A stretch of DNA of 59,189 nucleotides, from NCBI GenBank assembly GCA_902592965.1, contig CACJGL010000006.1:1-59189 (forward strand), in the 5' to 3' direction. The notes below the pieces were generated by a model. That model worked only from the letters and a program-made list of their open reading frames with translations. It searched no databases and was not told the origin of the DNA. Source of the DNA: an uncultured Pelagibacteraceae bacterium (GTDB lineage Bacteria > Pseudomonadota > Alphaproteobacteria > Pelagibacterales > Pelagibacteraceae). Each line of letters starts with the position of its first letter. Position 1 is the stretch's first letter. Below are positions 565 to 13,364 of this stretch, in pieces. The position numbers and the translations under genes are program-made.

Positions 565-1715
565 TGAAAAAATCAAAAAGATCAGATGTAGATCCATTTA
601 TAGTAATGGATGTAATGGAATCAGCAAGAATTGCAGAGGAAAAAGGTAAAGATATAATTCATATGGAGGTAGGGCAGCCAGGAACACCAGCACCTAAGAT
701 TGCAAAAGATTATATTACTAATGAGATAAACAAAAACAATCTTGGCTACACCGTATCACTTGGTCTACCAGCTCTAAGAACAAAAATTTCAAAGCTATAT
801 GGAGATTGGTATAATTTAGATTTAAATCCAAATAGAATAGTAGTTACAACAGGCTCTTCTGGAGCTTTTATATTATCCTTTTCTGCACTGTTTGATAGTG
901 GAGATAGAGTTGGAATTGGATCTCCAAGTTATCCTAGCTATAGACAAATACTAAAATCATTAAGTTTGGAAACTGTAGATATTCAGACCAAACTTCAAAA
1001 TAGATTTCAACCATTACCAGATGATATTACAAATAATAATTTAAATGGAATGCTTGTTGCATCACCTGCAAATCCAACTGGGTCTATGTTAGATAAACAA
1101 TCGCTAGAGAATTTAATTAATACTGCAAATGAGAACAATGTAAGCTTTATTAGTGATGAAATTTATCACGGAATTCAATATGAAAATAATCCAACTTCAG
1201 CTTTAGAGATTACAGATAATTGTTATGTAATTAATTCTTTTTCAAAATACTTTTCAATGACTGGTTGGCGAATAGGTTGGATGGTTGTACCAGATGATCA
1301 TGTTAGACAAGTAGAAAGACTTTCACAAAATTTGTTTGTTTGTCCTCCACACGCAAGTCAAGTTACAGCCCTTGCTTCCTTAGATGCAAATGAAGAGTTA
1401 CAATCAAATGTTGAAGTATATAAGAAAAATAGAGAAATACTTTTAGAAGAATTACCGAAGGCAGGATTAAAAAAGTTTTCACCACCTGATGGTGCTTTTT
1501 ACATTTATGTTGATATATCCGAATATTCAAATGATAGCTTAGCTTTTTGTAAAAAAGTTTTAGATGAAGCAAATGTTGCGATAACACCAGGAATTGATTT
1601 TGATCAAAAAAGAGGAAATTCTACTATCCGATTCTCATACGCTAGAAGCACAAAAGATATAATTGAAGGAACAAAAAGAATTAAGAAATTTATGTCAAAA
1701 AATTATTTAAAGTGA
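561..1715 (+). CDS. PLP-dependent class I/II aminotransferase
   Basis: 384 residues, normal length for fold-type I aspartate-type aminotransferases. N-terminal IIHMEVGQPG, central SPANPTGS, and the PLP-lysine motif SFSKYFSMTGWRIGW (Lys229) are present, followed by a C-terminal Arg-containing IRFSYA segment that binds the substrate carboxylate. It transfers an amino group between an amino acid and a 2-oxoacid in the cytoplasm. The amino acid is not identifiable by eye; aspartate, alanine or aromatic substrates are all possible. The start overlaps the preceding stop by 4 nt, and the next gene starts at GTG overlapping this TGA. Confidence 0.9.
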   Translation: MMKKSKRSDVDPFIVMDVMESARIAEEKGKDIIHMEVGQPGTPAPKIAKDYITNEINKNNLGYTVSLGLPALRTKISKLYGDWYNLDLNPNRIVVTTGSSGAFILSFSALFDSGDRVGIGSPSYPSYRQILKSLSLETVDIQTKLQNRFQPLPDDITNNNLNGMLVASPANPTGSMLDKQSLENLINTANENNVSFISDEIYHGIQYENNPTSALEITDNCYVINSFSKYFSMTGWRIGWMVVPDDHVRQVERLSQNLFVCPPHASQVTALASLDANEELQSNVEVYKKNREILLEELPKAGLKKFSPPDGAFYIYVDISEYSNDSLAFCKKVLDEANVAITPGIDFDQKRGNSTIRFSYARSTKDIIEGTKRIKKFMSKNYLK

Positions 1716-2743
1716 AAAAAATAATTATATTACTATCTCTTTTATTTTTTTTTCTCTTAGACTTTATTTATTCGAATTTAAATTTGAAAAAATTATCAAC
1801 CGTAACAGTCTATGACAAAAATTTTGAATATAATTTTATTCAAAACTTAAATACTAAAGATAAATTTGGTTCATTTGTTTATGACTTATGTACTAACAAC
1901 TTTGGAATGAAAATTTCTTGTAGAGAAAAGAAGAATCTTAAAAAATATAAATTAGCATTGATAGGTGATAGTTTTGTAGAGGGAATAGGTTTAAGCTTTG
2001 ATGATACATTTGCAGGTATTTTAGAGAAAGATTTGAATTACAATGTTGCAAATTTGGGATTAAGATCTTATTCACCTTCAAATTACAAAGAAAAAATAAT
2101 GCATTTTATAAAGCAAGGTTTTATTTTTGATCATATAATAATATTTATAGATATCAGTGATATACAAGATGAAGATTTTAGAAACGGCGAAATTAGAAAT
2201 AATAAAAAAGATATTACAAATTCATTCAAATATAAAAGTTTTAAGGAATTTCTTAAATTTAATTTTCAGATAAGCTATTATATTTTTTTTAAAATCAAAA
2301 ACTTTATTAGGACAAAATATATTTCTAAAAAAATTTTTAATGATCATGATGCTTATAATGAAAATTACTCTAGAGGATCTTGGACATATAAAAAAAATAA
2401 TCCACATATTAAAAACGGTTTGCACCATAGTTTAAAAAATATGGAAAATTTAGTAAATTTTCTTAAAGAAAATCAAATTGAGTATTCAATTGCAGTTTAC
2501 CCTTGGCCTCAACAGCTATTATTTGATGAGCAAAATTCAATTCATGTGAAAATATGGAAAAATTTTTGCAAAAAAAATTCTTGTAAGTATTTTTTTGATT
2601 TTTTTAAAGTATTTCACGAAATGATAGAAAAGAATGAATTAAAAAAAATTATTTTAAATTATTATTTTTATACGGATGTTCATTTTAACAAAAAAGGAAA
2701 TGAAGTAATTGCTAATTTATTAATAAAAAAATTAAAAAAATAA
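1712..2743 (+). CDS. SGNH-hydrolase-like membrane-anchored protein
   Basis: 343 residues starting at GTG inside the stop of the aminotransferase gene. One N-terminal hydrophobic helix (about residues 3-22) anchors or exports it. The body has SGNH/GDSL-type blocks: LIGDSFVEG near residue 89 (nucleophile Ser) and a C-terminal DVHFNKKG block (Asp and His of the triad). Such proteins are esterases or acyl/acetyl transfer enzymes acting on cell-surface glycans, often near O-antigen or alginate-type genes. The substrate is unknown. The protein is rich in Lys, Phe and Ile, as expected in an AT-rich genome. Confidence 0.65.
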   Translation: MKKIIILLSLLFFFLLDFIYSNLNLKKLSTVTVYDKNFEYNFIQNLNTKDKFGSFVYDLCTNNFGMKISCREKKNLKKYKLALIGDSFVEGIGLSFDDTFAGILEKDLNYNVANLGLRSYSPSNYKEKIMHFIKQGFIFDHIIIFIDISDIQDEDFRNGEIRNNKKDITNSFKYKSFKEFLKFNFQISYYIFFKIKNFIRTKYISKKIFNDHDAYNENYSRGSWTYKKNNPHIKNGLHHSLKNMENLVNFLKENQIEYSIAVYPWPQQLLFDEQNSIHVKIWKNFCKKNSCKYFFDFFKVFHEMIEKNELKKIILNYYFYTDVHFNKKGNEVIANLLIKKLKK

Positions 2744-2789
2744 TTTTGAAATAAAAAAAATTAGTTGTATAAGACACCAACTAACTATT

Positions 2790-2866
2790 GGCGGGGTAGC
2801 TCAGTTGGTTAGAGCGCGGGACTCATAAGCCCGAGGTCAGTGGTTCGATCCCACTTCCCGCTACCA
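2790..2866 (+). tRNA. tRNA with CAU anticodon, probably elongator tRNA-Met
   Basis: A 77-nt cloverleaf with encoded CCA. The acceptor arms GGCGGGG and TCCCGCT pair with G-U at both ends, the D-arm is GCTC/GAGC, the anticodon loop is CTCATAA (CAT), the T-arm is AGTGG/CCACT with loop TTCGATC, and the discriminator is A. The first anticodon-stem pair below the loop would be an A-G mismatch (31-39) beside four G-C pairs. The CAU anticodon leaves three options: elongator Met, initiator Met, or lysidine-modified Ile2. The paired acceptor end and the D-arm argue against initiator, and similarity to alphaproteobacterial elongator Met is the reason for my choice. Confidence 0.9.
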
Positions 2867-2910
2867 TTTTTAGTCCTTTTAATTTTTAAATTTATCTTTA
2901 TAAATAATTA

Positions 2911-3759
2911 ATGAAATTTTTAGCAAAAATTCTAATATTTCTGTTGCTTTTTATTCCAGCTTCTTTTGCTAAAGTAGATGAAGCATTAGATAGATTTTAT
3001 TCTTCTTTAGAAAATTTTTTGGAGGAGAATTTTGAGAATACAGATTTTTCAATAAAAAAAATTGAAACTATTAAACCAGAAATAGGAGTACAAACATTTA
3101 AGGTTATTTCAGAAGATAGTTTAGACTTATCTTTTTTCCAAGGATCTTTATTTTTACATGACAGTGATAGAGAAACATTTAATGTAGGAATTGGACAAAG
3201 ATATTTATCTAATGATGAAAGTATATTAGTTGGTTTAAATGCTTTTTATGATTATGAATTTAATTATGAACATCAAAGATTTAGTGTAGGTGCTGAAATC
3301 AAATCTTCTATTCTAGATTTAAATTATAACCAGTATTTTGCTCAAAGCTCTACCAAAAAAGGAAAAAATGGTAAAGACGAAGAGGCTATCGATGGATTTG
3401 ATGTTGAATTAGGCGCGCATCTTCCATATGTACCATCTACGAAAATTTATCTGAAAGCTTTCGATTTTGAAGTCTCTGGTGGAAATGATTTTCAAGGTTT
3501 AGAATTCTCTACCCAGATAAAAGTACCAAATTCTGGTTTATCATTTGAAATTGGTCACACTGATTATGATCATCACAATGATCAAAGTTTTATTAATATT
3601 AGATATAGTAATAGCATAAAAAATCCTGGTACGTCTTTATTTAGTAGTGAGGCCTTTGAGAGAATTTCCATGAAAGATAGAATGTACGAGAAGGTTAGAA
3701 GAGAAAATATCATAAAAAAAAAAGGAGCAGGTTTTACTGTTAAAGCAGGAGGATTTTAA
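2911..3759 (+). CDS. Stand-alone inverse-autotransporter beta-barrel (intimin/invasin-type)
   Basis: 282 residues. A signal peptide (residues 1-20, cleavage after ASFA) is followed by a short helical region and then repeated amphipathic strands typical of the inverse autotransporter beta-domain: NVGIGQRY, LVGLNAFYDYEFNYEHQRF, SVGAEIKSS, LDLNYNQYF, FDVELGAHLPY, GLSFEIGHTDYD, QSFINIRYS. The C-terminal RMYEKVRRENIIKK resembles the linker helix that threads through the barrel in intimins. In known members a long Ig-like passenger follows, but here the protein ends about 15 residues after that helix. It should sit in the outer membrane. The next gene begins at the very next base after the stop, so the two are almost certainly co-transcribed. 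There is no obvious Shine-Dalgarno. Confidence 0.72.
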   Translation: MKFLAKILIFLLLFIPASFAKVDEALDRFYSSLENFLEENFENTDFSIKKIETIKPEIGVQTFKVISEDSLDLSFFQGSLFLHDSDRETFNVGIGQRYLSNDESILVGLNAFYDYEFNYEHQRFSVGAEIKSSILDLNYNQYFAQSSTKKGKNGKDEEAIDGFDVELGAHLPYVPSTKIYLKAFDFEVSGGNDFQGLEFSTQIKVPNSGLSFEIGHTDYDHHNDQSFINIRYSNSIKNPGTSLFSSEAFERISMKDRMYEKVRRENIIKKKGAGFTVKAGGF

Positions 3760-4623
3760 ATGAAAAATTTTAAATATTTATTTTTAATTTTATCTACAAT
3801 TTTTATTTTTGAAATGTTTAACTCTAATAGGGCTGAAGCATGTACAATTAATTCTGGAGTTGTAAAACATGGAACAACTGGCGCTGATGATTCTATAGAG
3901 GATGGATGTGACACAACTCCCAGTCTCTATGAAGTAGTTATTTATAAGTTATATTTATGCACATCTTCTCCAACGGAAGCTACAACGACATCAACAGTTG
4001 TTTTAACAAGTTGTTCGCAAATTTTTGATAATTCAAGTGGAGCAACAGCATCCGTATCGCAAGGACAAGAGATAGTTTTAGATGGCACTTACACCCGACC
4101 TCCAGAGGGAACATATACTCATGGTTATGCTTTTATGGATAATACATTTGGTATAACTTGGGCAGGAGAGATTGCAGCATCAATGGATGGAATGACAGGA
4201 GGGTCTGGCGTTTTTTGTGGAACAGTGGCTGGTTCAGGAACACACGCAAAAGGTAGTACTCATAATAATAGTTCTGTTTGTGGTGCAAGCGCAATAACCC
4301 CAGGAAAATTTGTAGAAACTTTAGCTCAATTTGGCGCGTCCTCGGATGCATTTTCATCAAAAGCTTTTGTTGAAAATATAAATGGAACTACAGCTAGTAT
4401 CACTGGGTATTTAGTTGACAGTAACGGTCACAGAGCCGCAAACACAGGTGAAGTAGACAAACTTGAGGGGTTAGTTGCTTTTGCAAATTCAGTAGTTATT
4501 ACTTCAGATACTACATCTATAAGTATGACATTTAATGTAGGCGAAGGAATGCACCTTGTTGATGAGAGTGACAAATTATATATTGGAAGTGGACCTTTCC
4601 AAGCAATAATGAGCGCAAATTAA
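3760..4623 (+). CDS. Secreted Cys- and Thr/Ser-rich protein, possible partner of the upstream barrel
   Basis: 287 residues. A signal peptide ends near AEA/C (residues about 1-27). The -3 to -1 residues A-E-A before Cys do not make a good lipobox, so signal peptidase I is more likely than lipidation. The mature part has several Cys (possible disulphides), many Thr, Ser and Gly, low charge and predicted beta character, like a surface or adhesin domain. I recognise no family. It starts immediately after the barrel gene stop, with the barrel's last codons forming an AGGAGG-like site upstream. The gene overlaps the apt stop by 3-4 nt convergently. A role as a split passenger is inference. Confidence 0.65.
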   Translation: MKNFKYLFLILSTIFIFEMFNSNRAEACTINSGVVKHGTTGADDSIEDGCDTTPSLYEVVIYKLYLCTSSPTEATTTSTVVLTSCSQIFDNSSGATASVSQGQEIVLDGTYTRPPEGTYTHGYAFMDNTFGITWAGEIAASMDGMTGGSGVFCGTVAGSGTHAKGSTHNNSSVCGASAITPGKFVETLAQFGASSDAFSSKAFVENINGTTASITGYLVDSNGHRAANTGEVDKLEGLVAFANSVVITSDTTSISMTFNVGEGMHLVDESDKLYIGSGPFQAIMSAN

Positions 4624-5147
4624 TGTCCTGGAAAATCTAAAAGATTTTCAACTGCATATCCTTTTTTAACCAGATTATCTGTACCACCTAAATCAAAAAG
4701 ATTTATCACAAATATAAATCCAGCCACTTTACTTTTTGATATCTCTATCAATTTAGCTGCTGCCTCTGCAGTACCACCAGTAGCAATTAAATCGTCTATT
4801 ATTAAGACTCTATCATTTTCATGAAATGAATCTTTGTGAACTTCTATTGTAGCCGTTCCGTATTCTAATTCAAAATCAACAGAATGTACTTCTGCAGGTA
4901 ATTTATTTTTTTTTCTTAACATTATAAATGGCTTATCTAAGATGTATGAAATAGCAGAAGCAAATACAAAACCTCTTGATTCTACTGCAGCTATTTTATC
5001 AAAATTAAATTTTTTTGATCTCTCTACAATTTGATTTATACACTCTTTGAAAGCCTTTTCGTTTTTAATAAGAGTTGTGATGTCTCTAAATAGAATTCCC
5101 TTTTTAGGATAGTCTTGAATTGACCTAATATGTTCTTTTAAATCCAT
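4620..5147 (-). CDS. apt: Adenine phosphoribosyltransferase
   Basis: 175 residues, typical Apt length. It converts adenine plus PRPP to AMP and pyrophosphate in the cytoplasm. The PRPP-binding motif VLIIDDLIATGGTAEA lies near residue 115, and the N-terminal IPGYPKKGI-like segment reads IQDYPKKGILFRDITTL. It is divergent from mtnP with only 28 bp between the start codons. Because MtnP releases adenine from methylthioadenosine, this pairing suggests direct adenine recycling. It ends convergently against the secreted-protein gene. Confidence 0.95.
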   Translation of the reverse strand: MDLKEHIRSIQDYPKKGILFRDITTLIKNEKAFKECINQIVERSKKFNFDKIAAVESRGFVFASAISYILDKPFIMLRKKNKLPAEVHSVDFELEYGTATIEVHKDSFHENDRVLIIDDLIATGGTAEAAAKLIEISKSKVAGFIFVINLFDLGGTDNLVKKGYAVENLLDFPGH

Positions 5148-5175
5148 AAAACTTAATTATAATCTAAAATGTATT

Positions 5176-6045
5176 ATGGCAAATAATAAATTAGCAATTA
5201 TTGGTGGAAGTGGCCTATATGACGTTGAAGAGTTTAAAGATAGAGAAACTTTAGATTTAAATACTCCATGGGGAAAACCTTCAGATTTAATATTAAAAGC
5301 TAAATATAATAATAAAGAAATTTATTTTTTACCAAGGCATGGAAAAGGTCATTTTATTTCTCCATCAAGAATAAATTTTAGAGCAAATATTGATGCTCTT
5401 AAGCAACTTGGTATTACTGACATAGTTTCTGTTTCAGCTGTAGGATCTTTAAAGGAAGATTTACCTCCAGGTAAATTTGTTATCATTGATCAGTTCATTG
5501 ATAGAACTTTTGCAAGAAATAAAACTTTTTTTGATGATGAGATTGTTGCACATGTATCAATGGCACATCCAACTTCAAGTGGGCTAATGAATGCTTGCGA
5601 AGATGCAATTAAAAAAGAAAATATACCTTATCAAAGAGGCGGAACTTACGTTGTAATGGAAGGTCCACAATTTTCAACATTGGCAGAGTCAAATTTATAT
5701 AGATCATGGAAAGCAGATGTTATTGGAATGACAAATATGCCAGAGGCTAAACTAGCAAGAGAAGCAGAAATTAGATATGCTTCAGTTTCAATGGTAACAG
5801 ATTATGATTGCTGGCATCCAGATCATGAAAATGTGGATGTTCAACAAGTTATAAAAGTACTCTTAGATAATGCAGCGAAAGCAAAAAACATGATTAAAAA
5901 TTTGATAGAGAACTTTGAAAATCACATTGATCCTAATGATCCAACTAATAATTGCTTAGATGTAGCAATAATTACTGCCCCAGAAAAAAGAACTCAAAAA
6001 ACTAAAGACAAATTAAAAACAATTGCAGGAAGAGTTCTTACTTAA
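5176..6045 (+). CDS. mtnP: S-methyl-5'-thioadenosine phosphorylase
   Basis: 289 residues, PNP/MTAP family. It phosphorolyses MTA (and in many species 5'-deoxyadenosine) to adenine and 5-methylthioribose-1-phosphate. Signatures are IIGGSGLYDVE at the N-terminus, LPRHGKGH near residue 53, the substrate motif MEGPQFSTLAES near residue 161 and NMPEAKLAREAEI near residue 188. The start is the ATG at 5176; the ATG at 5169 is out of frame. A TATAAT at 5158-5163 lies 12 nt upstream without a Shine-Dalgarno. The stop overlaps the mtnA ATG (TAATG), a tight two-gene operon. Confidence 0.95.
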   Translation: MANNKLAIIGGSGLYDVEEFKDRETLDLNTPWGKPSDLILKAKYNNKEIYFLPRHGKGHFISPSRINFRANIDALKQLGITDIVSVSAVGSLKEDLPPGKFVIIDQFIDRTFARNKTFFDDEIVAHVSMAHPTSSGLMNACEDAIKKENIPYQRGGTYVVMEGPQFSTLAESNLYRSWKADVIGMTNMPEAKLAREAEIRYASVSMVTDYDCWHPDHENVDVQQVIKVLLDNAAKAKNMIKNLIENFENHIDPNDPTNNCLDVAIITAPEKRTQKTKDKLKTIAGRVLT

Positions 6046-7121
6046 TGAAAATTAATGGTGTTAAATATAAAACAATTTGGTTTGATGAAGAAAAACAGGT
6101 TGTAAAAATAATAGATCAAACAAAGCTTCCACATAAATTTATAATAAAAGAATTAAATTCAGTTAAAGACACGATAAATGCTATAAAAACAATGGAAGTG
6201 AGAGGTGCTCCATTAATCGGAGGTACAGCTGCATTTGGATTGGTTTTAGCTATAAAAGAAAATAACAGTTTAGATTTTATAAAAAAAAGTTCAGAGGAAT
6301 TAGTTGCATCTAGACCAACAGCAATAAATCTTCAGTGGGCAGTTCATAGAATGAATAACAAATTGTCATTTGTTGAACCTGGAGATTTATTTAATGTTGC
6401 ACTCAATGAAGCTAAAGAAATTTGTAAAGAGGATGAGGGATTTTGTGAAAGTATTGGTAAAAATGGATTAAATATTATTGAAGATATATATAATAAAAAG
6501 AAAGATACCGTCAATATTCTCACACATTGTAATGCAGGTTGGTTAGCTACAATAGATTGGGGAACAGCAACTTCTCCTATTTATCATGCACATAAAAAAG
6601 GAATACCATTACATGTTTGGGTAGATGAAACTAGACCAAGAAATCAAGGAGCAAACCTTACATCATATGAACTTAATGAAGAAGAAATTCCAAATACAAT
6701 TATAGCAGATAATACAGGTGGAATATTAATGCAAAGAGGACAGGTTGATATGTGTATTGTTGGAACAGATAGAACATTATCTAACGGAGATGTGTGCAAT
6801 AAAATTGGAACCTATTTAAAAGCTCTCGCAGCTCATGATAATAAGGTACCTTTTTACGTAGCTTTACCAAGTTCAACGATAGATTGGAATTTAAAAAACG
6901 CAAAAGATATTCCTATAGAAGAAAGAGATCCAAAAGAACTTTCTCATGTGGATGGAATTAACAAAGATAATAAAGTGGATAAAGTTTTAATATATCCCGA
7001 AAAAAGCAAATCATTAAATTTAGCCTTTGATGTAACACCTGCTAAATATGTTACTGGATTAATAACAGAAAAGGGAGTTTGTGATGCTTCTTCTGAAGGT
7101 TTAAAAAAGTTATTTAATTAA
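6045..7121 (+). CDS. mtnA: Methylthioribose-1-phosphate isomerase
   Basis: 358 residues, eIF2B-alpha/MtnA family. It isomerises 5-methylthioribose-1-phosphate to 5-methylthioribulose-1-phosphate; related enzymes also take 5-deoxyribose-1-phosphate. The N-terminal MEVRGAPLIGGTAAFG, central THCNAGWLAT (catalytic Cys) and VGTDRTLSNGDVCNKIGTY (catalytic Asp) are all present, which separates MtnA from initiation-factor paralogues. It overlaps mtnP by one base. It ends one base before the end of the convergent aldolase-dehydrogenase gene, whose predicted substrate type (ketose-1-phosphate) matches the MtnA product. Confidence 0.95.
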   Translation: MKINGVKYKTIWFDEEKQVVKIIDQTKLPHKFIIKELNSVKDTINAIKTMEVRGAPLIGGTAAFGLVLAIKENNSLDFIKKSSEELVASRPTAINLQWAVHRMNNKLSFVEPGDLFNVALNEAKEICKEDEGFCESIGKNGLNIIEDIYNKKKDTVNILTHCNAGWLATIDWGTATSPIYHAHKKGIPLHVWVDETRPRNQGANLTSYELNEEEIPNTIIADNTGGILMQRGQVDMCIVGTDRTLSNGDVCNKIGTYLKALAAHDNKVPFYVALPSSTIDWNLKNAKDIPIEERDPKELSHVDGINKDNKVDKVLIYPEKSKSLNLAFDVTPAKYVTGLITEKGVCDASSEGLKKLFN

Positions 7122-9155
7122 TTATCTTAAAGAAGCTGCAATATTTCCACCGTCAACAGTTAGTACTGCTCCAGTTGATTTTTTTGATATCGCAAGATGA
7201 TAAAAAGCTTTGGCCACATCATCTGCTTTAACTTCGCTTAACAGTAAATTACCACTCATATATTGATCAGTGGTTACTTCTCTTGCCTTCGCTCTTTGTT
7301 TAATCATTTTGTCATTTAATAAACCACTTCTAATTCTATCAGCGTTTACACCGTTTGATCTAATACCAAGGTGTCCATAATCAACTGCATATTGTTTACA
7401 TAAATTTAAAAGCGCAGACTTAGGCAATCCATATGGTCCAAAATTTTTACCAGGATTAACTGATTGCTTAGATATATTAAATAACAAACATCCATTTATA
7501 TTTTGTTTTTTCATAATTTTAACAGCCTCTGAAGCACAATTTTGATGTGAGAAAAAATTATCTTCAAAACTTTTTCGAAGTATTTCATCATTAACTTCTG
7601 CAATTGATCCACCTATAGCAGTGCCTGCATTAGATATTAAAATATCTACACCTCCATATATCTCCAAAATTTTATTAAATGCATTTTTTACACTTTGTTT
7701 GTCAGTTACATCACAGTGGATACAAAGATCACTTATTTTTGTTTGCAAATCATTTATTTTACTTTTATTAATATCAAGCAAAACAACTTCAGCTCCATAT
7801 TTTTTAAATAATTTATAGGTTGCTTTACCAATTTCGCCTGTGCTACCAGTGATAACAACAACGTTTCCTTGCAATTCTTTTTTTGCTTTATTTAATTTTG
7901 CTTGTTCCAAGGACCAATACTCAACATCAAATAAGTCTTTTTTCGATAAAAATTTATATCTGGATGTTTCTTCAACACTTGAAATTACATTGGCATTAGT
8001 TTGAGTTAAATCTCCTGCAATTTTTGCAGCTTTTAAGGTATCTCCTACTGTAAATAAACCAAAATTCTGAACTAGAATTACTCTAGGAGATGTATCAAGC
8101 ATTACTTTTTTTTCTTTAGTTTTTTTCTTATTAGATTCAAAATATTTTTTATATTTTTGCCTATATTCTTTGAATTTTTTTTCAGCTAAATTTTTAAATT
8201 CATCTAAATTACAGTTTGCTTTTGGTGATATTACTAAAGGAAATGGTTTAACTCTTATAACATGATCAGGTGTAGCTGTACCTTCATTTGAGTATCTATT
8301 TATATCTTTACCATTAATAAAATAATCTAACTTATTATTTTTTTTAAAATTTAAGATAAATTTGTTATCATTTTTTTCAGATAAAAGACCTCTCAATATA
8401 GGAGCTATATCTGCAGTTGAGAAATTAAATTTAGTTTTCTTTATCTGTTTTATTTTTTTCTTTTTTAGTTTGGTTAAAGTTTTTTCAGCATCAGATATAT
8501 ACTTTATCATTAAACTGTAAGCATCTTTTGCATTATCAGCAAATGTGAAAATACCGTGGTTTAATAAAATCAAACAATTTATATTTGGATTTTTAGAATA
8601 AACTTCATTTATTTTTTGTGCTAATTTAAATCCTGGCATTACATATGGCACTATTGCAGTTTTTTTACCAAATATTTTTTTTGATAAGATTTCTCCATTT
8701 GGTCTATTAGTGATTTTCATAATTGCATCAGAATGAGTGTGATCAACAAATTTAAACGGTAAAAATGCGTGTAAAAAAGTTTCAACTGATGGATTGGGAG
8801 ATTTTGTATCTATTAAATTTTTTTTTTGAAAAGCAACCATGTCATCATCAGAGAGAGTTTTCTTTTTTTTCATAGTTAGCAATGGATTTAATTTAACAGC
8901 TGGTAAACCTGCTGGTTCAATTTCAGCCATATCCCATCCGCTGCCTTTTACGCAAAGGACATCGTAATATTTACCATCTATATCTTTAATTTTGGTTTTA
9001 ACTGAAGTATTGCCACCACCATGCAAGACCAATTCTGGATTTCTTCCTAGAAGCCTGGTTGTATAAACTCTTAAAGCCATATCTTCAGAATGACCTAATT
9101 TCTTATACTTTTTAATATATTTTTTAGCTTCGTTTTCTGACCAATTGTTTTTCAA
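7122..9155 (-). CDS. Fused class II aldolase / short-chain dehydrogenase
   Basis: 677 residues in two domains. The class II aldolase domain (about 1-400) has GGGNTS at 46-51, Glu125, the zinc-binding His139 and His141 in DHTHSDA and His200 in LLNHGIF. The SDR domain (about 428-677) has GSTGEIG at 437-443, Asp461 after the second strand (favouring NAD), and YGLPK with Tyr575 and Lys579. The architecture is that of RhaD-type bifunctional rhamnulose-1-phosphate aldolase/lactaldehyde dehydrogenase. Such aldolases split ketose-1-phosphates to DHAP plus an aldehyde, which the fused SDR would oxidise or reduce. No rhamnose isomerase or kinase is nearby. The mtnP-mtnA pair is convergent and speD-speE is divergent, so methylthioribulose-1-phosphate or 5-deoxyribulose-1-phosphate is a plausible substrate (inference). 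Confidence 0.88.
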   Translation of the reverse strand: MKNNWSENEAKKYIKKYKKLGHSEDMALRVYTTRLLGRNPELVLHGGGNTSVKTKIKDIDGKYYDVLCVKGSGWDMAEIEPAGLPAVKLNPLLTMKKKKTLSDDDMVAFQKKNLIDTKSPNPSVETFLHAFLPFKFVDHTHSDAIMKITNRPNGEILSKKIFGKKTAIVPYVMPGFKLAQKINEVYSKNPNINCLILLNHGIFTFADNAKDAYSLMIKYISDAEKTLTKLKKKKIKQIKKTKFNFSTADIAPILRGLLSEKNDNKFILNFKKNNKLDYFINGKDINRYSNEGTATPDHVIRVKPFPLVISPKANCNLDEFKNLAEKKFKEYRQKYKKYFESNKKKTKEKKVMLDTSPRVILVQNFGLFTVGDTLKAAKIAGDLTQTNANVISSVEETSRYKFLSKKDLFDVEYWSLEQAKLNKAKKELQGNVVVITGSTGEIGKATYKLFKKYGAEVVLLDINKSKINDLQTKISDLCIHCDVTDKQSVKNAFNKILEIYGGVDILISNAGTAIGGSIAEVNDEILRKSFEDNFFSHQNCASEAVKIMKKQNINGCLLFNISKQSVNPGKNFGPYGLPKSALLNLCKQYAVDYGHLGIRSNGVNADRIRSGLLNDKMIKQRAKAREVTTDQYMSGNLLLSEVKADDVAKAFYHLAISKKSTGAVLTVDGGNIAASLR

Positions 9156-9246
9156 TGTTTATCCTCAATAAATTATTATAATAGTTTTTTGTTTGAAAGA
9201 AGTAAAAAAATTCGTTAGTTAAAAAAGATATATATATTAAATCCTT

Positions 9247-10287
9247 ATGAAAAAAGTTGGGGAACATATAACGCTGGATATAGTCGGCACCAAAAAGGAA
9301 TATACTCCTGAATTTTATGAAAAGTTAGTTTACAAAATTGCTAAAGCAGCAAAAGTGACAGTTTTAAAAATTTCTAAATATAAATTCGAGCCACAAGGAT
9401 TTACATTGGTCGCTTTGCTTGCCGAAAGCCACATTAGTTTTCATACTTTCCCAGAAAAAGAAATTGTAAGCTTTGATTTTTTTACATGTGGAAAAGTATC
9501 ACCAAAAGTGTCTCTAGATATAATAAAAGACGAGATGAAACATACAAATATCATAATTAAAGAATTTAATAGAGATACTATTGATCTTTATCATGACAAT
9601 TATAGTTCTCCAGGTTTAAAAAAATCATATGTTGTTAATAGAGTTTTAGAAAATTTTAAATCTAAAGTAGGTCAATATATTGAAATACTTGATTTAGAAC
9701 AATTTGGAAAAGCTTTATTTATTGATAATGAAATACAAGTAGCTGAAAGTGATGAACATTTATATAGCTCAACCTTTGTAAATTCAGGTCTTAATTTAAA
9801 TTCAAACAAAGAAAAAGCTGCAATCATTGGTGGAGGTGACGGTGGTGTTGCAAGAGAATGCATTTCACAAAACTTTGGCTTTATAGATTGGTATGAATTA
9901 GATCCTGAAGTTGTGAATGTGTGTGATAAACACCTAAGTAAAATTGGTGAGAAGGCCACAGAAAAGAATTCAGTTAAATGTGTTTGGGGAGATGCTTTTG
10001 AAAGTATTAAATCTGTCAAAGACAACACTTATGATCAAATATTTGTAGATCTAAATGATGATCAATTTTGTATAGATTTGGCTGCAAAAAATATGTCATC
10101 TTTAGAAAGAATTTTAAAACCTAAAGGTGTAATTACTGCTCAAGTAGGAAGCCAAGACAAAAAACCAAAACAAGTTGAAAATTGGTTAAATGTATTCAAC
10201 AAAAATTTTGCAAATACAAAACTTTCAAGAGTTTATATACCAAGTTTCGATTGTTCATGGAATTTTTCATCGTCAATAAATCATTAA
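9247..10287 (+). CDS. Fused S-adenosylmethionine decarboxylase - spermidine synthase
   Basis: 346 residues. The N-terminal about 115 residues match prokaryotic SpeD: GEHITLDI, the self-cleaving site LAESHISFHTFPE (Ser61 becomes the pyruvoyl group) and FFTCGK (Cys81). The rest is SpeE: VGQYIEI, QVAESDEHLY, the AdoMet-binding GGGDGG (195-200), YELDP and the catalytic VDLNDD near residue 268. One chain would therefore decarboxylate AdoMet and transfer the aminopropyl group to putrescine, releasing MTA. It lies divergent from the aldolase-SDR gene and one gene away from mtnPA, which process MTA. TATATT lies 8 nt before the ATG and there is no Shine-Dalgarno. Confidence 0.88.
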   Translation: MKKVGEHITLDIVGTKKEYTPEFYEKLVYKIAKAAKVTVLKISKYKFEPQGFTLVALLAESHISFHTFPEKEIVSFDFFTCGKVSPKVSLDIIKDEMKHTNIIIKEFNRDTIDLYHDNYSSPGLKKSYVVNRVLENFKSKVGQYIEILDLEQFGKALFIDNEIQVAESDEHLYSSTFVNSGLNLNSNKEKAAIIGGGDGGVARECISQNFGFIDWYELDPEVVNVCDKHLSKIGEKATEKNSVKCVWGDAFESIKSVKDNTYDQIFVDLNDDQFCIDLAAKNMSSLERILKPKGVITAQVGSQDKKPKQVENWLNVFNKNFANTKLSRVYIPSFDCSWNFSSSINH

Positions 10288-10335
10288 TTTTTCTTTTTAA
10301 AACAATAATTTTATGAAATAATCTTCAAAATTTTT

Positions 10336-10340
10336 GGAGG
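10336..10340 (+). promoter_or_regulatory. Strong Shine-Dalgarno (GGAGG) fixing the binding-protein start
   Basis: GGAGG five bases before the ATG at 10346. It is unusual in this window, where most leading genes have none, and fits a gene expected to be very highly translated. It rules out the longer TTG-start reading. Confidence 0.8.
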
Positions 10341-10345
10341 AAAAA

Positions 10346-11173
10346 ATGGAAAAATTAAAAGTATTAGGATTTGGTATTTTAATATCATCATTTCTAACGA
10401 TTTCTTCAATTGCAGATCAAATTAAAATAGGAACAGAAGGTGCATATCCACCTTGGAATTCTAAAGACTCAGCGGGTAATTTGATTGGCTTTGAAGTCGA
10501 ATTAGCAAATGAATTATGTAAAATTATGAAACATGATTGCACAATTGTAGAGCAAGACTGGGATGGAATGATACCAGCTTTGGTCTCAAGAAAATTTGAT
10601 GCCATCATGGCTGGAATGTCAATAACTGGTGAGAGAATGAAAACAATAAATTTTTCTCAAGGTTATGCTGATGAAGTTGCATCATTAGCTGTTATGAAAG
10701 GATCTAAAAACGAAGGTCTTAAAACAATGTCAGCTATAAATTTATCTGACGTAAGTGCTGATGAACAAGCAACACTAGATGTTTTGACTAAAGCATTTAA
10801 AGGTAAAACTATTGGTGTACAAACAGCAACAATTCACCAGAACTTCCTAGAGTCTGGTTTAATGGGTAATGTAAAAATAAGAACTTACAAAACTCAAGAT
10901 GAAGTTAACTTGGATTTATCTGCTGGTAGAATAGATGCAGCACTAGCTGCAGCAGTTGCTTTTACAGATTATGCAGAAAAATCTGGTAAAGGAGTTGTAT
11001 TAACTGGACCAACATTTGCAGGTGGAGATTTTGGTAATGGTGTTGGCGTAGGTATTAGAAAAGGTGACTCTAAACTTTTAAATGATTTTAATGCAGCAAT
11101 TGATAAAGCTAGAGATGATGGCATTATCAGTAAGCTTGCTATAAAACATTTTGGTTTTGACGCTTCTATGTAA
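10346..11173 (+). CDS. Polar amino acid ABC transporter, periplasmic binding protein
   Basis: 275 residues. The start is placed at the ATG at 10346 because a perfect GGAGG lies at 10336-10340, five bases upstream; a longer TTG-start frame from 10334 would contain that ribosome site. A signal peptide (about 1-22) is followed by IKIGTEGAYPPWN and GFEVELANELC, the family 3 binding-protein signature for Arg/Lys/His/octopine-type ligands, and then DAIMAGMSITGERM. An insert of about 20 residues near residue 120 is as seen in opine/arginine-type members. It delivers ligand to the two permeases downstream. A stem-loop at 11183-11210 separates it from the permease gene. Confidence 0.93.
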   Translation: MEKLKVLGFGILISSFLTISSIADQIKIGTEGAYPPWNSKDSAGNLIGFEVELANELCKIMKHDCTIVEQDWDGMIPALVSRKFDAIMAGMSITGERMKTINFSQGYADEVASLAVMKGSKNEGLKTMSAINLSDVSADEQATLDVLTKAFKGKTIGVQTATIHQNFLESGLMGNVKIRTYKTQDEVNLDLSAGRIDAALAAAVAFTDYAEKSGKGVVLTGPTFAGGDFGNGVGVGIRKGDSKLLNDFNAAIDKARDDGIISKLAIKHFGFDASM

Positions 11174-11182
11174 TAAATTATT

Positions 11183-11210
11183 TATGGGTGGCTATAATTA
11201 GCCACCTATA
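11183..11210 (+). promoter_or_regulatory. Intercistronic stem-loop between binding protein and permease
   Basis: A 12-bp stem pairs 11183-11194 with 11199-11210 (one G-U pair, core GGTGGCTA/TAGCCACC) around the 4-nt loop TAAT. The 3' arm ends two bases before the permease ATG at 11213, so the hairpin occupies the place of a ribosome site. No U-tract follows, so it is more likely an mRNA-stabilising or translation-limiting structure than an intrinsic terminator. Confidence 0.7.
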
Positions 11211-11212
11211 TT

Positions 11213-11905
11213 ATGGAACTTCTATATTTTGGTGATAAAGGTTGGGGAGACGAGTTATTCTTTGCAACCTTAATGACAATTGCGGTTTCAATAACCGCAA
11301 TGATAATAGGCTTTATATTTGCTGCTTTATTTACTCCATTAAAATTATCTAATAACAAATTTCTTAATTCTATTGGTAATGCTTACACCACTGTTATTAG
11401 AGGTGTACCTGAGCTACTAGTAATTTATTTATTTTTCTTTGGTGGAAGTGGAGCAATTATGTTTGTTGCTTCAATATTTGGTTATAATGATTACATCGAA
11501 ATTAATGCTTTTTTAACTGGTTCATTTTCAATAGGGATAATATCGGGAGCGTACTCGACTGAAGTATTTAGAGGAGCCCTACAATCAATTGATAAAGGTC
11601 AGTTCGAAGCTGCTAAAGTTTTAGGTTTTAATAAATATATTTACTTCTTTAAAATAATTTTGCCTCAAATGCTAAGACTAGCAATTCCAAACTTAAGTAA
11701 TGTTTGGCAAATTACATTAAAAGATACTTCTCTTATATCTGTAACGGGTTTAGTTGAAATAATGAGACAATCCTATATTGCGGCTGGCTCAACTAGAGAT
11801 CCATTATTTTTTTACTCGTTTGCAGCAGTTTTATACTTAATGCTAACATTTTTAAGTATGCAATTGTTAAACAGATTAGAAACAAAATATAGCAAAGGTT
11901 ATTAA
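11213..11905 (+). CDS. Polar amino acid ABC transporter permease (HisQ-type)
   Basis: 230 residues with about five membrane helices. The family signature is visible: TVIRGVPELLVIYLFFFGG near residue 60 and the EAA loop GQFEAAKVLGFNK near residue 131 that docks on the ATPase. It forms a heterodimer with the next permease, whose ATG overlaps the final base here. It imports the ligand of the preceding binding protein across the inner membrane. No ATP-binding subunit is encoded beside it. Confidence 0.93.
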   Translation: MELLYFGDKGWGDELFFATLMTIAVSITAMIIGFIFAALFTPLKLSNNKFLNSIGNAYTTVIRGVPELLVIYLFFFGGSGAIMFVASIFGYNDYIEINAFLTGSFSIGIISGAYSTEVFRGALQSIDKGQFEAAKVLGFNKYIYFFKIILPQMLRLAIPNLSNVWQITLKDTSLISVTGLVEIMRQSYIAAGSTRDPLFFYSFAAVLYLMLTFLSMQLLNRLETKYSKGY

Positions 11906-12582
11906 TGGATATTGAATTAATGATTAATAGTTTTCCTAAGTTGTTAAACGCAACTTTGATTACTCTTAAACTATTATCTGTATCTTTAATTCTTGGTCTC
12001 TTTATTGGATTAGGTTTTGCAATCTTGAGAATGAATAATAATAAGTTGATTAATAAATTTGCTTATGGATACTCATATATTTTTAGAGGAACACCTCTAT
12101 TGGTACAAATCTTCATAATATATTTTGGATTAGGTCAAATTGAATACTTAAGAACAACAATTTTATGGGTAGTTTTAAAAGAACCATACTGGTGTGCGAT
12201 AATTGCATTTTCATTAAATACTGGGGCTTATACTTCAGAAATATTAAGATCAGCTTTTCAAACAATAAAACCTGGATATTTAGAAGCTGGAAGAAGCCTA
12301 GGGATACCTTCAAAAATTATTTTTACAAAAATACAGATTCCTATTGCAATAAAACAATCTTTACCAGCTTATGGAAATGAAATTATTTTGATGCTTAAAG
12401 GAACATCTCTAGCAAGTACAGTCACACTTATGGACTTAACTGGTGTTGCTAAATATATAATTTCAACAACGTTTAAGCCAGTAGAGGTATTTATTGTGGC
12501 AGGAGGTATTTACTTGTTTATGACATTTATAATTCATAATGTTATTAAATATTTAGAAAAAAAATATGGATTTCAAACATGA
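11905..12582 (+). CDS. Polar amino acid ABC transporter permease (HisM-type)
   Basis: 225 residues, paralogous to the preceding permease: YIFRGTPLLVQIFIIYFG near residue 58 and the EAA loop GYLEAGRSLGIPSK near residue 123. Translationally coupled at both ends: it starts at the last base of the first permease stop, and its stop overlaps the ATG of the amidohydrolase gene. An operon with the binding protein is clear; the ATPase must be supplied from elsewhere. Confidence 0.93.
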   Translation: MDIELMINSFPKLLNATLITLKLLSVSLILGLFIGLGFAILRMNNNKLINKFAYGYSYIFRGTPLLVQIFIIYFGLGQIEYLRTTILWVVLKEPYWCAIIAFSLNTGAYTSEILRSAFQTIKPGYLEAGRSLGIPSKIIFTKIQIPIAIKQSLPAYGNEIILMLKGTSLASTVTLMDLTGVAKYIISTTFKPVEVFIVAGGIYLFMTFIIHNVIKYLEKKYGFQT

Positions 12583-13364
12583 AAATAGCTTGCATACAAT
12601 TATCTAGTGGAGAAAATTATCAAAATAATTTCAAAGATATTGTTAAATATGTAAATCAAGCTATAAAAAATAAATCTGATTTAATTATTACACCTGAAAC
12701 CTCTTCTTTGATGTCTAGTAGTAGAGAAACACTTTTTAAATATTCATATGAAATGAATAAAGATCCAATTTTGAAGAAAATTAGGGAAGTTTCAAAAAAA
12801 TATAAGAAATGGATTTTACTCGGATCAATTTGTGTTAAGGTTAAAAACAAACTCAGAAATAGATCTATACTGGTTGGACCAAATGGAAAAATTATCAAAT
12901 ATTATGATAAAATTAATATGTTTGATGTTAAAATTCCAAATAAAGAACAACATAAAGAAAGTAAAACTTTTAAAGCAGGAAATAAATTGGTCACTGCCAA
13001 CTTACCTTGGGGAAAAATAGGTTTTACAATCTGTTTTGATCTGAGATTTCCTGAACTTTATAGGAATTTATCAAAAAAAAATTTAAGTTTTATAGCAGTT
13101 CCATCAGCTTTCACAAAGTTTACGGGACAAAAACATTGGTTACCACTTTTAAGAGCAAGAGCGATTGAAAATTTCTGTTATATTTTTGCACCAGCTCAAA
13201 CTGGTAAAAATACCCCTAAAAGAGAAACATTTGGTCATACAGCAATTATTTCACCAGACGGAAAAATATTATCATTAAAAAAATTAGGGAAGGGTGTAAT
13301 TTATTCAAAAATTAACCCTAAGCTTTCCATGGATTTAAGAAAAATAATACCAAGTCTAATTTAA
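12579..13364 (+). CDS. Carbon-nitrogen hydrolase (nitrilase superfamily amidohydrolase)
   Basis: 261 residues with the complete catalytic triad: Glu40 in IITPETS, Lys111 in YDKINMFD, and the nucleophile Cys152 in FTICFDLRFPEL. The closest look is Nit1/Nit2-type deaminated-glutathione or omega-amidases. It hydrolyses a C-N bond of an amide in the cytoplasm. Its ATG overlaps the permease stop by 4 nt, so it probably acts on the imported compound or its transamination product (inference). It ends convergently, overlapping the ATP-grasp gene by 4 bp. Confidence 0.9.
   Translation: MKIACIQLSSGENYQNNFKDIVKYVNQAIKNKSDLIITPETSSLMSSSRETLFKYSYEMNKDPILKKIREVSKKYKKWILLGSICVKVKNKLRNRSILVGPNGKIIKYYDKINMFDVKIPNKEQHKESKTFKAGNKLVTANLPWGKIGFTICFDLRFPELYRNLSKKNLSFIAVPSAFTKFTGQKHWLPLLRARAIENFCYIFAPAQTGKNTPKRETFGHTAIISPDGKILSLKKLGKGVIYSKINPKLSMDLRKIIPSLI

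Follow-up and report, generated by a model that had tools for sequence, protein, structure and literature searches.

A class II aldolase–dehydrogenase fusion replaces a single-domain aldolase beside mtnA in SAR11 bacteria and probably serves a DHAP shunt

We analyzed a 59,189-nucleotide stretch of DNA (the window) from an uncultured Pelagibacteraceae bacterium, very probably of the SAR11 group (GenBank assembly GCA_902592965.1, contig CACJGL010000006.1, positions 1 to 59,189 of the forward strand). It carries five adjacent genes: apt, mtnP, mtnA, a gene fusing a class II aldolase to a short-chain dehydrogenase/reductase (SDR), and speD-speE (speDE). The fusion fills the slot that a single-domain FucA-type aldolase holds in most mtnA-bearing relatives, and no genome of the order was found with both. 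From these comparisons we consider it about 80% probable that the cluster is a dihydroxyacetone phosphate (DHAP) shunt for 5-methylthioribulose-1-phosphate and 5-deoxyribulose-1-phosphate with a fused step linked to nicotinamide adenine dinucleotide (NAD). It is established that mtnP or mtnK can make up such a shunt together with mtnA and a class II aldolase gene (PMC10986504, PMC6079011; the shunt is also known from PMC5893883). In the available text of these papers, the shunt employs separate FucA-like aldolases and a separate alcohol dehydrogenase, whereas the window encodes a fusion of 677 amino acids (aa). In the open literature we found no account of the fusion, either as part of the shunt or from SAR11, although an earlier mention is possible in PMC7237333, which is cited for the wide spread of the shunt. 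As far as the open literature shows, it is new to assign this fusion branch to the shunt, and so is the finding that it exchanges with the single-domain aldolase in SAR11; the gene fusion of SpeE in SAR11 has been published before (PMC8437039).

The fusion and a single-domain aldolase share one slot

To survey the order, we searched 147 genomes of SAR11 and its kin for the fusion (E values up to 1e-60) and for mtnA (up to 1e-20). The isomerase gene was present in 80 genomes and the fusion in 17, all of which had mtnA. The single-domain FucA-type aldolase (210 aa) was strongly matched in 63 genomes, with E values of 4e-48 or better; three further genomes, two of them the fusion carriers G096 and G107, had only weak hits (approximately 1e-11) on other aldolases and were left uncounted. 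The 80 mtnA-bearing genomes thus comprised 17 with the fusion, 62 with the single-domain aldolase, none with both and one with neither. In G036, the sole single-aldolase genome that lacked mtnA, the aldolase gene sits at the edge of a contig. In the genome with neither aldolase (G144), the contig ends approximately 9 kb beyond mtnA, and the mtnA neighbors are common to G088 and G121; the fusion is approximately 9 kb away from mtnA in G088 and on a different contig in G121.

The two aldolases occupy the same position. In all 18 single-aldolase loci that we fetched, the sole open reading frame (ORF) between mtnA and speDE encodes a FucA-type aldolase (for example, L073:8769-9398), 60 to 100% identical to the search query, with all three genes on one strand. 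In the window, this slot is filled by the fusion (7122..9155, minus strand, TTG start) in reversed orientation, so that the linked class II aldolase takes the place of the FucA-type enzyme. The single-domain protein is about 210 aa long, lacks an SDR domain and is directed as mtnA and speDE are, whereas the window's fusion runs opposite to them. As the sequence-only reading had noted, mtnA and the fusion lie end to end; they are convergent and abut at 7121/7122. The adjacency to mtnPA, which it suggested checking in related genomes, recurs there. Among 16 fetched SAR11 fusion loci other than the window, mtnA lies within 45 bp of the fusion in 12, at 1.3 and 2.5 kb in two and outside the stretch in two, while speDE is present in 13, each time oppositely directed and within 103 bp of the fusion. 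Three loci from a second family of the order have the fusion co-directional with mtnA; two of them carry the full run of apt, mtnP, mtnA and the fusion, and the third, cut by the contig end, has mtnA and the fusion. Fusion proteins 97 to 99% identical to that of the window come from uncultured Pelagibacteraceae genomes. Because the five-gene arrangement recurs in relatives, it is not a chance one.

Repeated exchange at the slot

We built a tree of MtnP plus MtnA for 34 loci, 16 of which were scored as fusion loci, two on account of a fusion located elsewhere in the same genome. It required at least seven changes between the fusion and single-aldolase states, five of them forced by well-supported branches. 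The state was nevertheless clustered on the tree, with seven changes versus a mean of 11.5 after shuffling and only 2 of 500 shuffles as low, and the exchange is therefore repeated but not random. In the tree of fusion proteins, SAR11 fusions from the family of the window formed one group (Shimodaira-Hasegawa-like approximate likelihood ratio test, 99), and those of the second family sat beside it with a support of 94, below the tool's mark of 95. Both trees were made by a fast method that gave a single type of branch support, and the fusion tree carried warnings on long branches and letter composition.

Base identities across the locus bear on how the exchange came about. Compared with its five nearest single-aldolase loci, the window is 84 to 100% identical in apt, mtnP, mtnA and three ATP-binding cassette (ABC) transporter genes. 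In the first third of speDE, identity is 81 to 82% to four of these loci and 92% to the fifth, while six fusion carriers are 94 to 97% identical to one another in that segment. The pattern looks like replacement by homologous recombination that carried the start of speDE along.

The five-gene locus and the proposed shunt

The sequence-only reading had placed all five genes correctly, and family models agree with its identifications. Adenine phosphoribosyltransferase is encoded by apt (4620..5147, minus strand; TIGR01090, 201.4 bits against a cutoff of 185.85), which adjoins mtnP in most SAR11 stretches that contain both. The methylthioadenosine phosphorylase gene mtnP (5176..6045, plus strand) scores 442.5 with NF006492 (cutoff, 437) and 311.3 with TIGR01694 (274.85), and the adjacent methylthioribose-1-phosphate isomerase gene mtnA (6045..7121, plus strand) scores 412.6 bits with TIGR00512 (279). 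The speD-speE fusion (9247..10287, plus strand) would combine S-adenosylmethionine decarboxylase and aminopropyltransferase: TIGR03330 matches residues 3 to 109 with 93.6 bits (cutoff, 75.65), and the Pfam domains AdoMet_dc and Spermine_synth cover residues 7 to 109 and 170 to 340, respectively, while speE equivalog models match below their cutoffs. Downstream lie genes resembling a basic-amino-acid-type ABC transporter, again with matches below cutoff. A riboswitch search of the window with Rfam at gathering thresholds returned only tRNA.

Read together, these families suggest the following route. SpeD-SpeE would produce spermidine and methylthioadenosine, which MtnP would split into methylthioribose-1-phosphate and adenine, the latter being reused via Apt. 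MtnA would then form methylthioribulose-1-phosphate, which the aldolase half of the fusion would cleave to DHAP and methylthioacetaldehyde. Likewise, 5-deoxyribulose-1-phosphate, derived from 5'-deoxyadenosine by the same route, would be cut to DHAP and acetaldehyde. The SDR half would convert the two-carbon aldehyde with NAD(H), and having both steps in one protein may spare the cell a reactive aldehyde. The fusion would thereby do the job of the stand-alone FucA-type aldolase found in 62 of the 80 mtnA-bearing genomes of the order. At this stage the two reactions of the fusion are predictions, as are its substrate, cofactor and products. The feeder enzymes and the predicted cleavage to DHAP and an aldehyde are those of the known DHAP shunt (mtnP or mtnN-mtnK, mtnA and ald2; drdK-drdI-drdA), and here too there is no mtnBCD at the locus; what differs is the aldolase, which is not of the single-domain FucA (Ald2/DrdA-like) type. 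The sequence-only reading had proposed a shunt with the aldehyde-processing step built into the aldolase. The slot exchange, the lack of any genome with both aldolases among the 147 and the mtn linkage lend strong support to the aldolase core of that proposal; this support does not extend to the aldehyde step and its direction, the named products or the fate of the sulfur.

Several SAR11 loci differ from this arrangement. One genome has a DUF1015 gene and a TrpB-like pyridoxal phosphate enzyme gene between mtnA and the fusion (L028:5143-7613). The mtnP-mtnA junction holds differing extra genes in L068:9092-11457, L022:6006-6938, L023:4927-6366, L069:6468-7328 and L074:9053-9859; the two that were typed, both from L068, weakly match alpha/beta-hydrolase. 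Three further loci (L086:2060-5846, L087:4720-8506 and L156:6754-10540) have a 527-aa ORF after mtnA and a 263-aa ORF before it, the 527-aa ORF of L086, the only one typed, belonging to the sulfatase family.

Later methionine salvage genes

We searched all 17 fusion-bearing genomes of the order, including that of the window; completeness reaches 90% or more in 14 of them. The acireductone dioxygenase family (ARD/mtnD, PF03079) was found in none, and the enolase-phosphatase mtnC (TIGR01691) exceeded its cutoff in none, with subthreshold scores of 18 to 22 bits in eight. In the window genome (1.04 Mb, approximately 79% complete) we saw no separate mtnB and no FucA-type aldolase, the fusion being the only class II aldolase-family protein found; a second protein of this family is present in 8 of the 17 genomes. 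Because of its incompleteness, absences from the window genome are weak evidence on their own. An FGGY kinase was likewise not found in it; 14 of the 17 genomes have one, and the two that were typed are glycerol kinases. The mtnB, mtnC and mtnD set of universal methionine salvage was therefore not found, in line with the lack of later salvage genes remarked on from the sequence alone (mtnK was not searched genome-wide). Of the genes that the sequence-only reading had named as speaking against the shunt, no mtnD, no mtnC above cutoff and, among the two FGGY kinases typed, no rhamnose kinase turned up, the isomerase genes rhaA and fucI themselves not having been searched for.

These results also bear on whether the aldolase-fold half might be an MtnB-type dehydratase acting in ordinary methionine salvage. 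MtnB belongs to the same fold family, and the single-domain SAR11 aldolase has a weak match to its model TIGR03328 (63.5 bits; cutoff, 137.05). For the fusion, this model is absent from the top 25 listed, the catalytic glutamate and the SDR partner fit aldol cleavage, and mtnD and above-cutoff mtnC are lacking from the 17 genomes. We regard a dehydratase role as very improbable.

Domain structure and conserved residues of the fusion

The NF006192 model, "bifunctional aldolase/short-chain dehydrogenase" (PRK08324.1-6), spans residues 1 to 677 of the fusion with 908.6 bits, above its curated cutoff of 639. The family name carries no substrate, and we propose one here for the mtn-linked members. 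The aldolase domain comprises residues 1 to 228 (8472..9155, minus strand; Pfam Aldolase_II at residues 31 to 217), and the SDR domain comprises residues 425 to 674 (7134..7883, minus strand; Pfam adh_short/adh_short_C2 within 431 to 670). A predicted structure of the protein (predicted local distance difference test, 85.7; predicted template modeling score, 0.87) confirms an aldolase and an SDR domain at the level of a model, leaving substrate and direction undecided. The aldolase domain model matched 3m4r (Z 31.1; root mean square deviation, 1.7 over 212), and the SDR domain model matched SDR structures with Z scores of 27 to 28. The model is poor at residues 514 to 519 and 565 to 576, beside the SDR active site, and families absent from the structural match lists mean nothing, since the lists are dominated by one domain.

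We aligned 58 proteins of the fusion's branch with seven RhaEW-like proteins. His139, His141, His200 and Glu125 are present in all 58 branch members, and the three histidines are retained in all 65 rows; by homology, the histidines are putative metal ligands and Glu125 the putative catalytic residue. In the SDR half, Asp461, Asn533, Ser562, Tyr575 and Lys579 are the predicted functional residues, also by homology. Asp461, Tyr575 and Lys579 occur in 65/65 rows and Ser562 in all but one, which has threonine, while Asn533 is found in 58/58 branch members and is replaced by leucine in six of the seven RhaEW-like proteins. Asn-Ser-Tyr-Lys is the SDR catalytic set, and in SDRs an aspartate such as Asp461 suggests NAD as cofactor rather than NADP.

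The fusion is distinct from RhaEW

RhaEW (YuxG), a homologous two-domain protein, joins an aldolase to an NAD-dependent aldehyde dehydrogenase (PMC3870299). The Chloroflexus protein cleaves rhamnulose-1-phosphate and oxidizes lactaldehyde with NAD+, showing no activity with NADH, and the Bacillus subtilis protein was likewise validated (PMC3870299). It shares with the window protein the two-domain architecture, the metal-ligand histidines and the SDR Ser-Tyr-Lys, RhaEW-like alphaproteobacterial proteins are 30 to 32% identical to the fusion, and two rhamnulose models cover nearly the whole length of the fusion. Both models, however, fall short of their cutoffs (TIGR02632, 446.4 versus 567.75; NF006189, 431 versus 634). 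In RhaE, aspartate replaces the catalytic glutamate of RhaD (PMC3870299); six of the seven RhaEW-like proteins have this aspartate, whereas the fusion branch has Glu125 throughout and keeps the SDR asparagine. The exception in both counts is L150, which forms a long, separate branch.

The gene neighborhoods differ as well. None of the seven fetched RhaEW-like loci, which belong to a branch 31 to 34% identical to the window protein, contains mtnA or mtnP. Neighbors were typed at four of them: one has a rhamnose isomerase above cutoff together with RhaS, one a rhamnose isomerase match just under cutoff, one an L-lactate-dehydrogenase-like gene and one an unassigned gene. Conversely, no rha gene was found among the eight typed of the ORFs listed from 1712 to 13364 of the window. 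Given the subcutoff scores, Glu125, the missing rha locus, the mtn linkage and the FGGY kinase results, we rejected the identification of the fusion as rhamnulose-1-phosphate aldolase/lactaldehyde dehydrogenase, which we consider highly unlikely.

Linkage to mtn genes across Alphaproteobacteria

A class-level search of 385 Alphaproteobacteria genomes (1e-60) yielded 81 with matches: 70 with a branch of 44 to 55% identity (the window's own genome, at 100%, included) and 13 with the 31 to 34% branch, two genomes having both. The mtnA gene was present in 66/70 fusion-branch genomes compared with 117/315 others (p = 4e-20, ignoring the relatedness of the genomes), and in 3/13 genomes of the 31 to 34% branch. 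We fetched 32 loci of the 44 to 55% branch, 20 of them mostly top scoring and 12 picked to cover further families. In 21, mtnA or mtnP was present, always on the strand of the fusion and in 19 cases within 200 bp. A second set of 80 loci was taken from at least 590 relatives in named genomes; mtnA lay within the stretch in 44 of the 52 loci classed as SAR11 by title, and mtnA or mtnP in 12 of the 28 others. In one large-genome family (nine genomes listed), all five fetched loci united a regulator, the fusion, a sugar ABC transporter, mtnK and mtnA. On plasmids, mtnK-mtnA lay near the fusion in three of five matches viewed out of 90 records (Pararhizobium, Mariluticola and Ensifer), the Ensifer locus additionally carrying a split transketolase and a RuBisCO-like protein. 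At the phylum level (1e-100), fusion matches occurred in 49/329 genomes, those outside the class falling mostly into a branch of 34 to 39% identity.

Three kinds of locus deserve separate mention. Clusters in which the fusion, a sugar ABC transporter, mtnK and mtnA occur together (L282:10963-23638 and L273-L277; L282 also with a split transketolase and a RuBisCO-like protein) are likely uptake and catabolic systems for 5-methylthioribose or 5-deoxyribose. In a contig filed as a gammaproteobacterial metagenome-assembled genome (L219:3282-7795), a fusion of 64% identity accompanies mtnA, mtnP and apt, by transfer or misbinning. In L142:6690-13605 and L252, same-branch fusions lie with glycerol-phosphate-dehydrogenase-like and sugar-transport genes, in L142 also with a sugar-kinase-like gene, and with no mtnA nearby; such settings perhaps mark a second substrate class of the branch.

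Several observations weigh against the shunt reading. Neither mtnA nor mtnP lay within the stretch in 11 of the 32 class-level loci and in 16 of the 28 non-SAR11 loci, and four of the 70 fusion genomes lack mtnA (G176, G244, G257 and G430), among them G176, which is 99% complete and has its fusion among glycerol-phosphate-type and kinase genes. Two of the five plasmid copies viewed (Sinorhizobium meliloti and Rhizobium leguminosarum) have no mtnK-mtnA near the fusion, the S. meliloti pSymB copy having no nearby mtn gene, and G527, the sole closer match outside the class (45%), has none in its stretch. Nor does the fusion avoid mtnD: the dioxygenase gene is present in 5/66 fusion-bearing versus 8/117 other mtnA-bearing genomes of the class (Fisher p = 1.0), and we rejected the expected avoidance. 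Since the S. meliloti pSymB copy and G176 have other neighbors, not every branch member need share one substrate. Some branch members have sugar-transport and glycerol-phosphate-type neighbors but no mtnA, which would favor a fusion that acts on an unrelated sugar phosphate and stands beside mtnA by chance inheritance. That a different class II aldolase is replaced in a single slot, repeatedly and to the exclusion of the other, together with the linkage to mtnA/mtnP and mtnK-mtnA in other lineages, makes this improbable.

Direction of the aldehyde step and choice of substrate

Within the shunt, the SDR half could instead act as a reductase, turning methylthioacetaldehyde or acetaldehyde into 2-methylthioethanol or ethanol. 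The known shunt uses a separate alcohol dehydrogenase for this step, and 2-methylthioethanol accumulates in Escherichia coli carrying the shunt (PMC10986504). The window protein also has the complete set of Asn533, Ser562, Tyr575 and Lys579, whereas the RhaEW-like proteins, whose characterized relative only oxidized, have leucine at 533 in six of seven cases; the SDR reaction should therefore not simply be copied from RhaW, a point that also weighs against the main reading. On the other side, the sole characterized homologous fusion oxidizes its aldehyde and is inactive with NADH (PMC3870299). The invariant Asp461 (58/58), which suggests NAD over NADP, fits oxidation somewhat better. Reduction is thus quite possible, and we take oxidation by the SDR half to be slightly likelier.

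The principal substrate might instead be 5-deoxyribulose-1-phosphate, formed from the radical S-adenosylmethionine by-product 5'-deoxyadenosine, with methylthioadenosine secondary. Clusters of this kind encode enzymes that accept either compound (PMC10986504, PMC6079011), and the aldolase DrdA prefers acetaldehyde (PMC6079011). The fusion, however, adjoins the methylthioadenosine source speDE in the window, and it does so in every one of the 13 SAR11 loci, out of 16 fetched, that have speDE in the stretch; we regard a main role for 5-deoxyribulose-1-phosphate as rather unlikely.

Implications

The DHAP shunt with a fused NAD-linked step offers a testable function for a widespread protein family left without a substrate in databases, and the SAR11 locus shows how, in nature, one enzyme has cleanly taken the place of another at a single position. 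With more doubt than we attach to the shunt, and at less than even odds, we raise the possibility that homologous recombination has repeatedly swapped two distantly related shunt aldolases in the slot and that the fused form channels the aldehyde to NAD-linked oxidation, the sulfur leaving as 2-(methylthio)acetate and not as 2-methylthioethanol. SAR11 bacteria have a need for sulfur, and the two forms of the locus yield a prediction of the sulfur compound that a given SAR11 lineage may release. If the oxidative fused branch is real, it would give a function to a large alphaproteobacterial fusion family that lacks an assigned substrate, and it would add to marine organosulfur chemistry a new branch that depends on genotype within a single genus.

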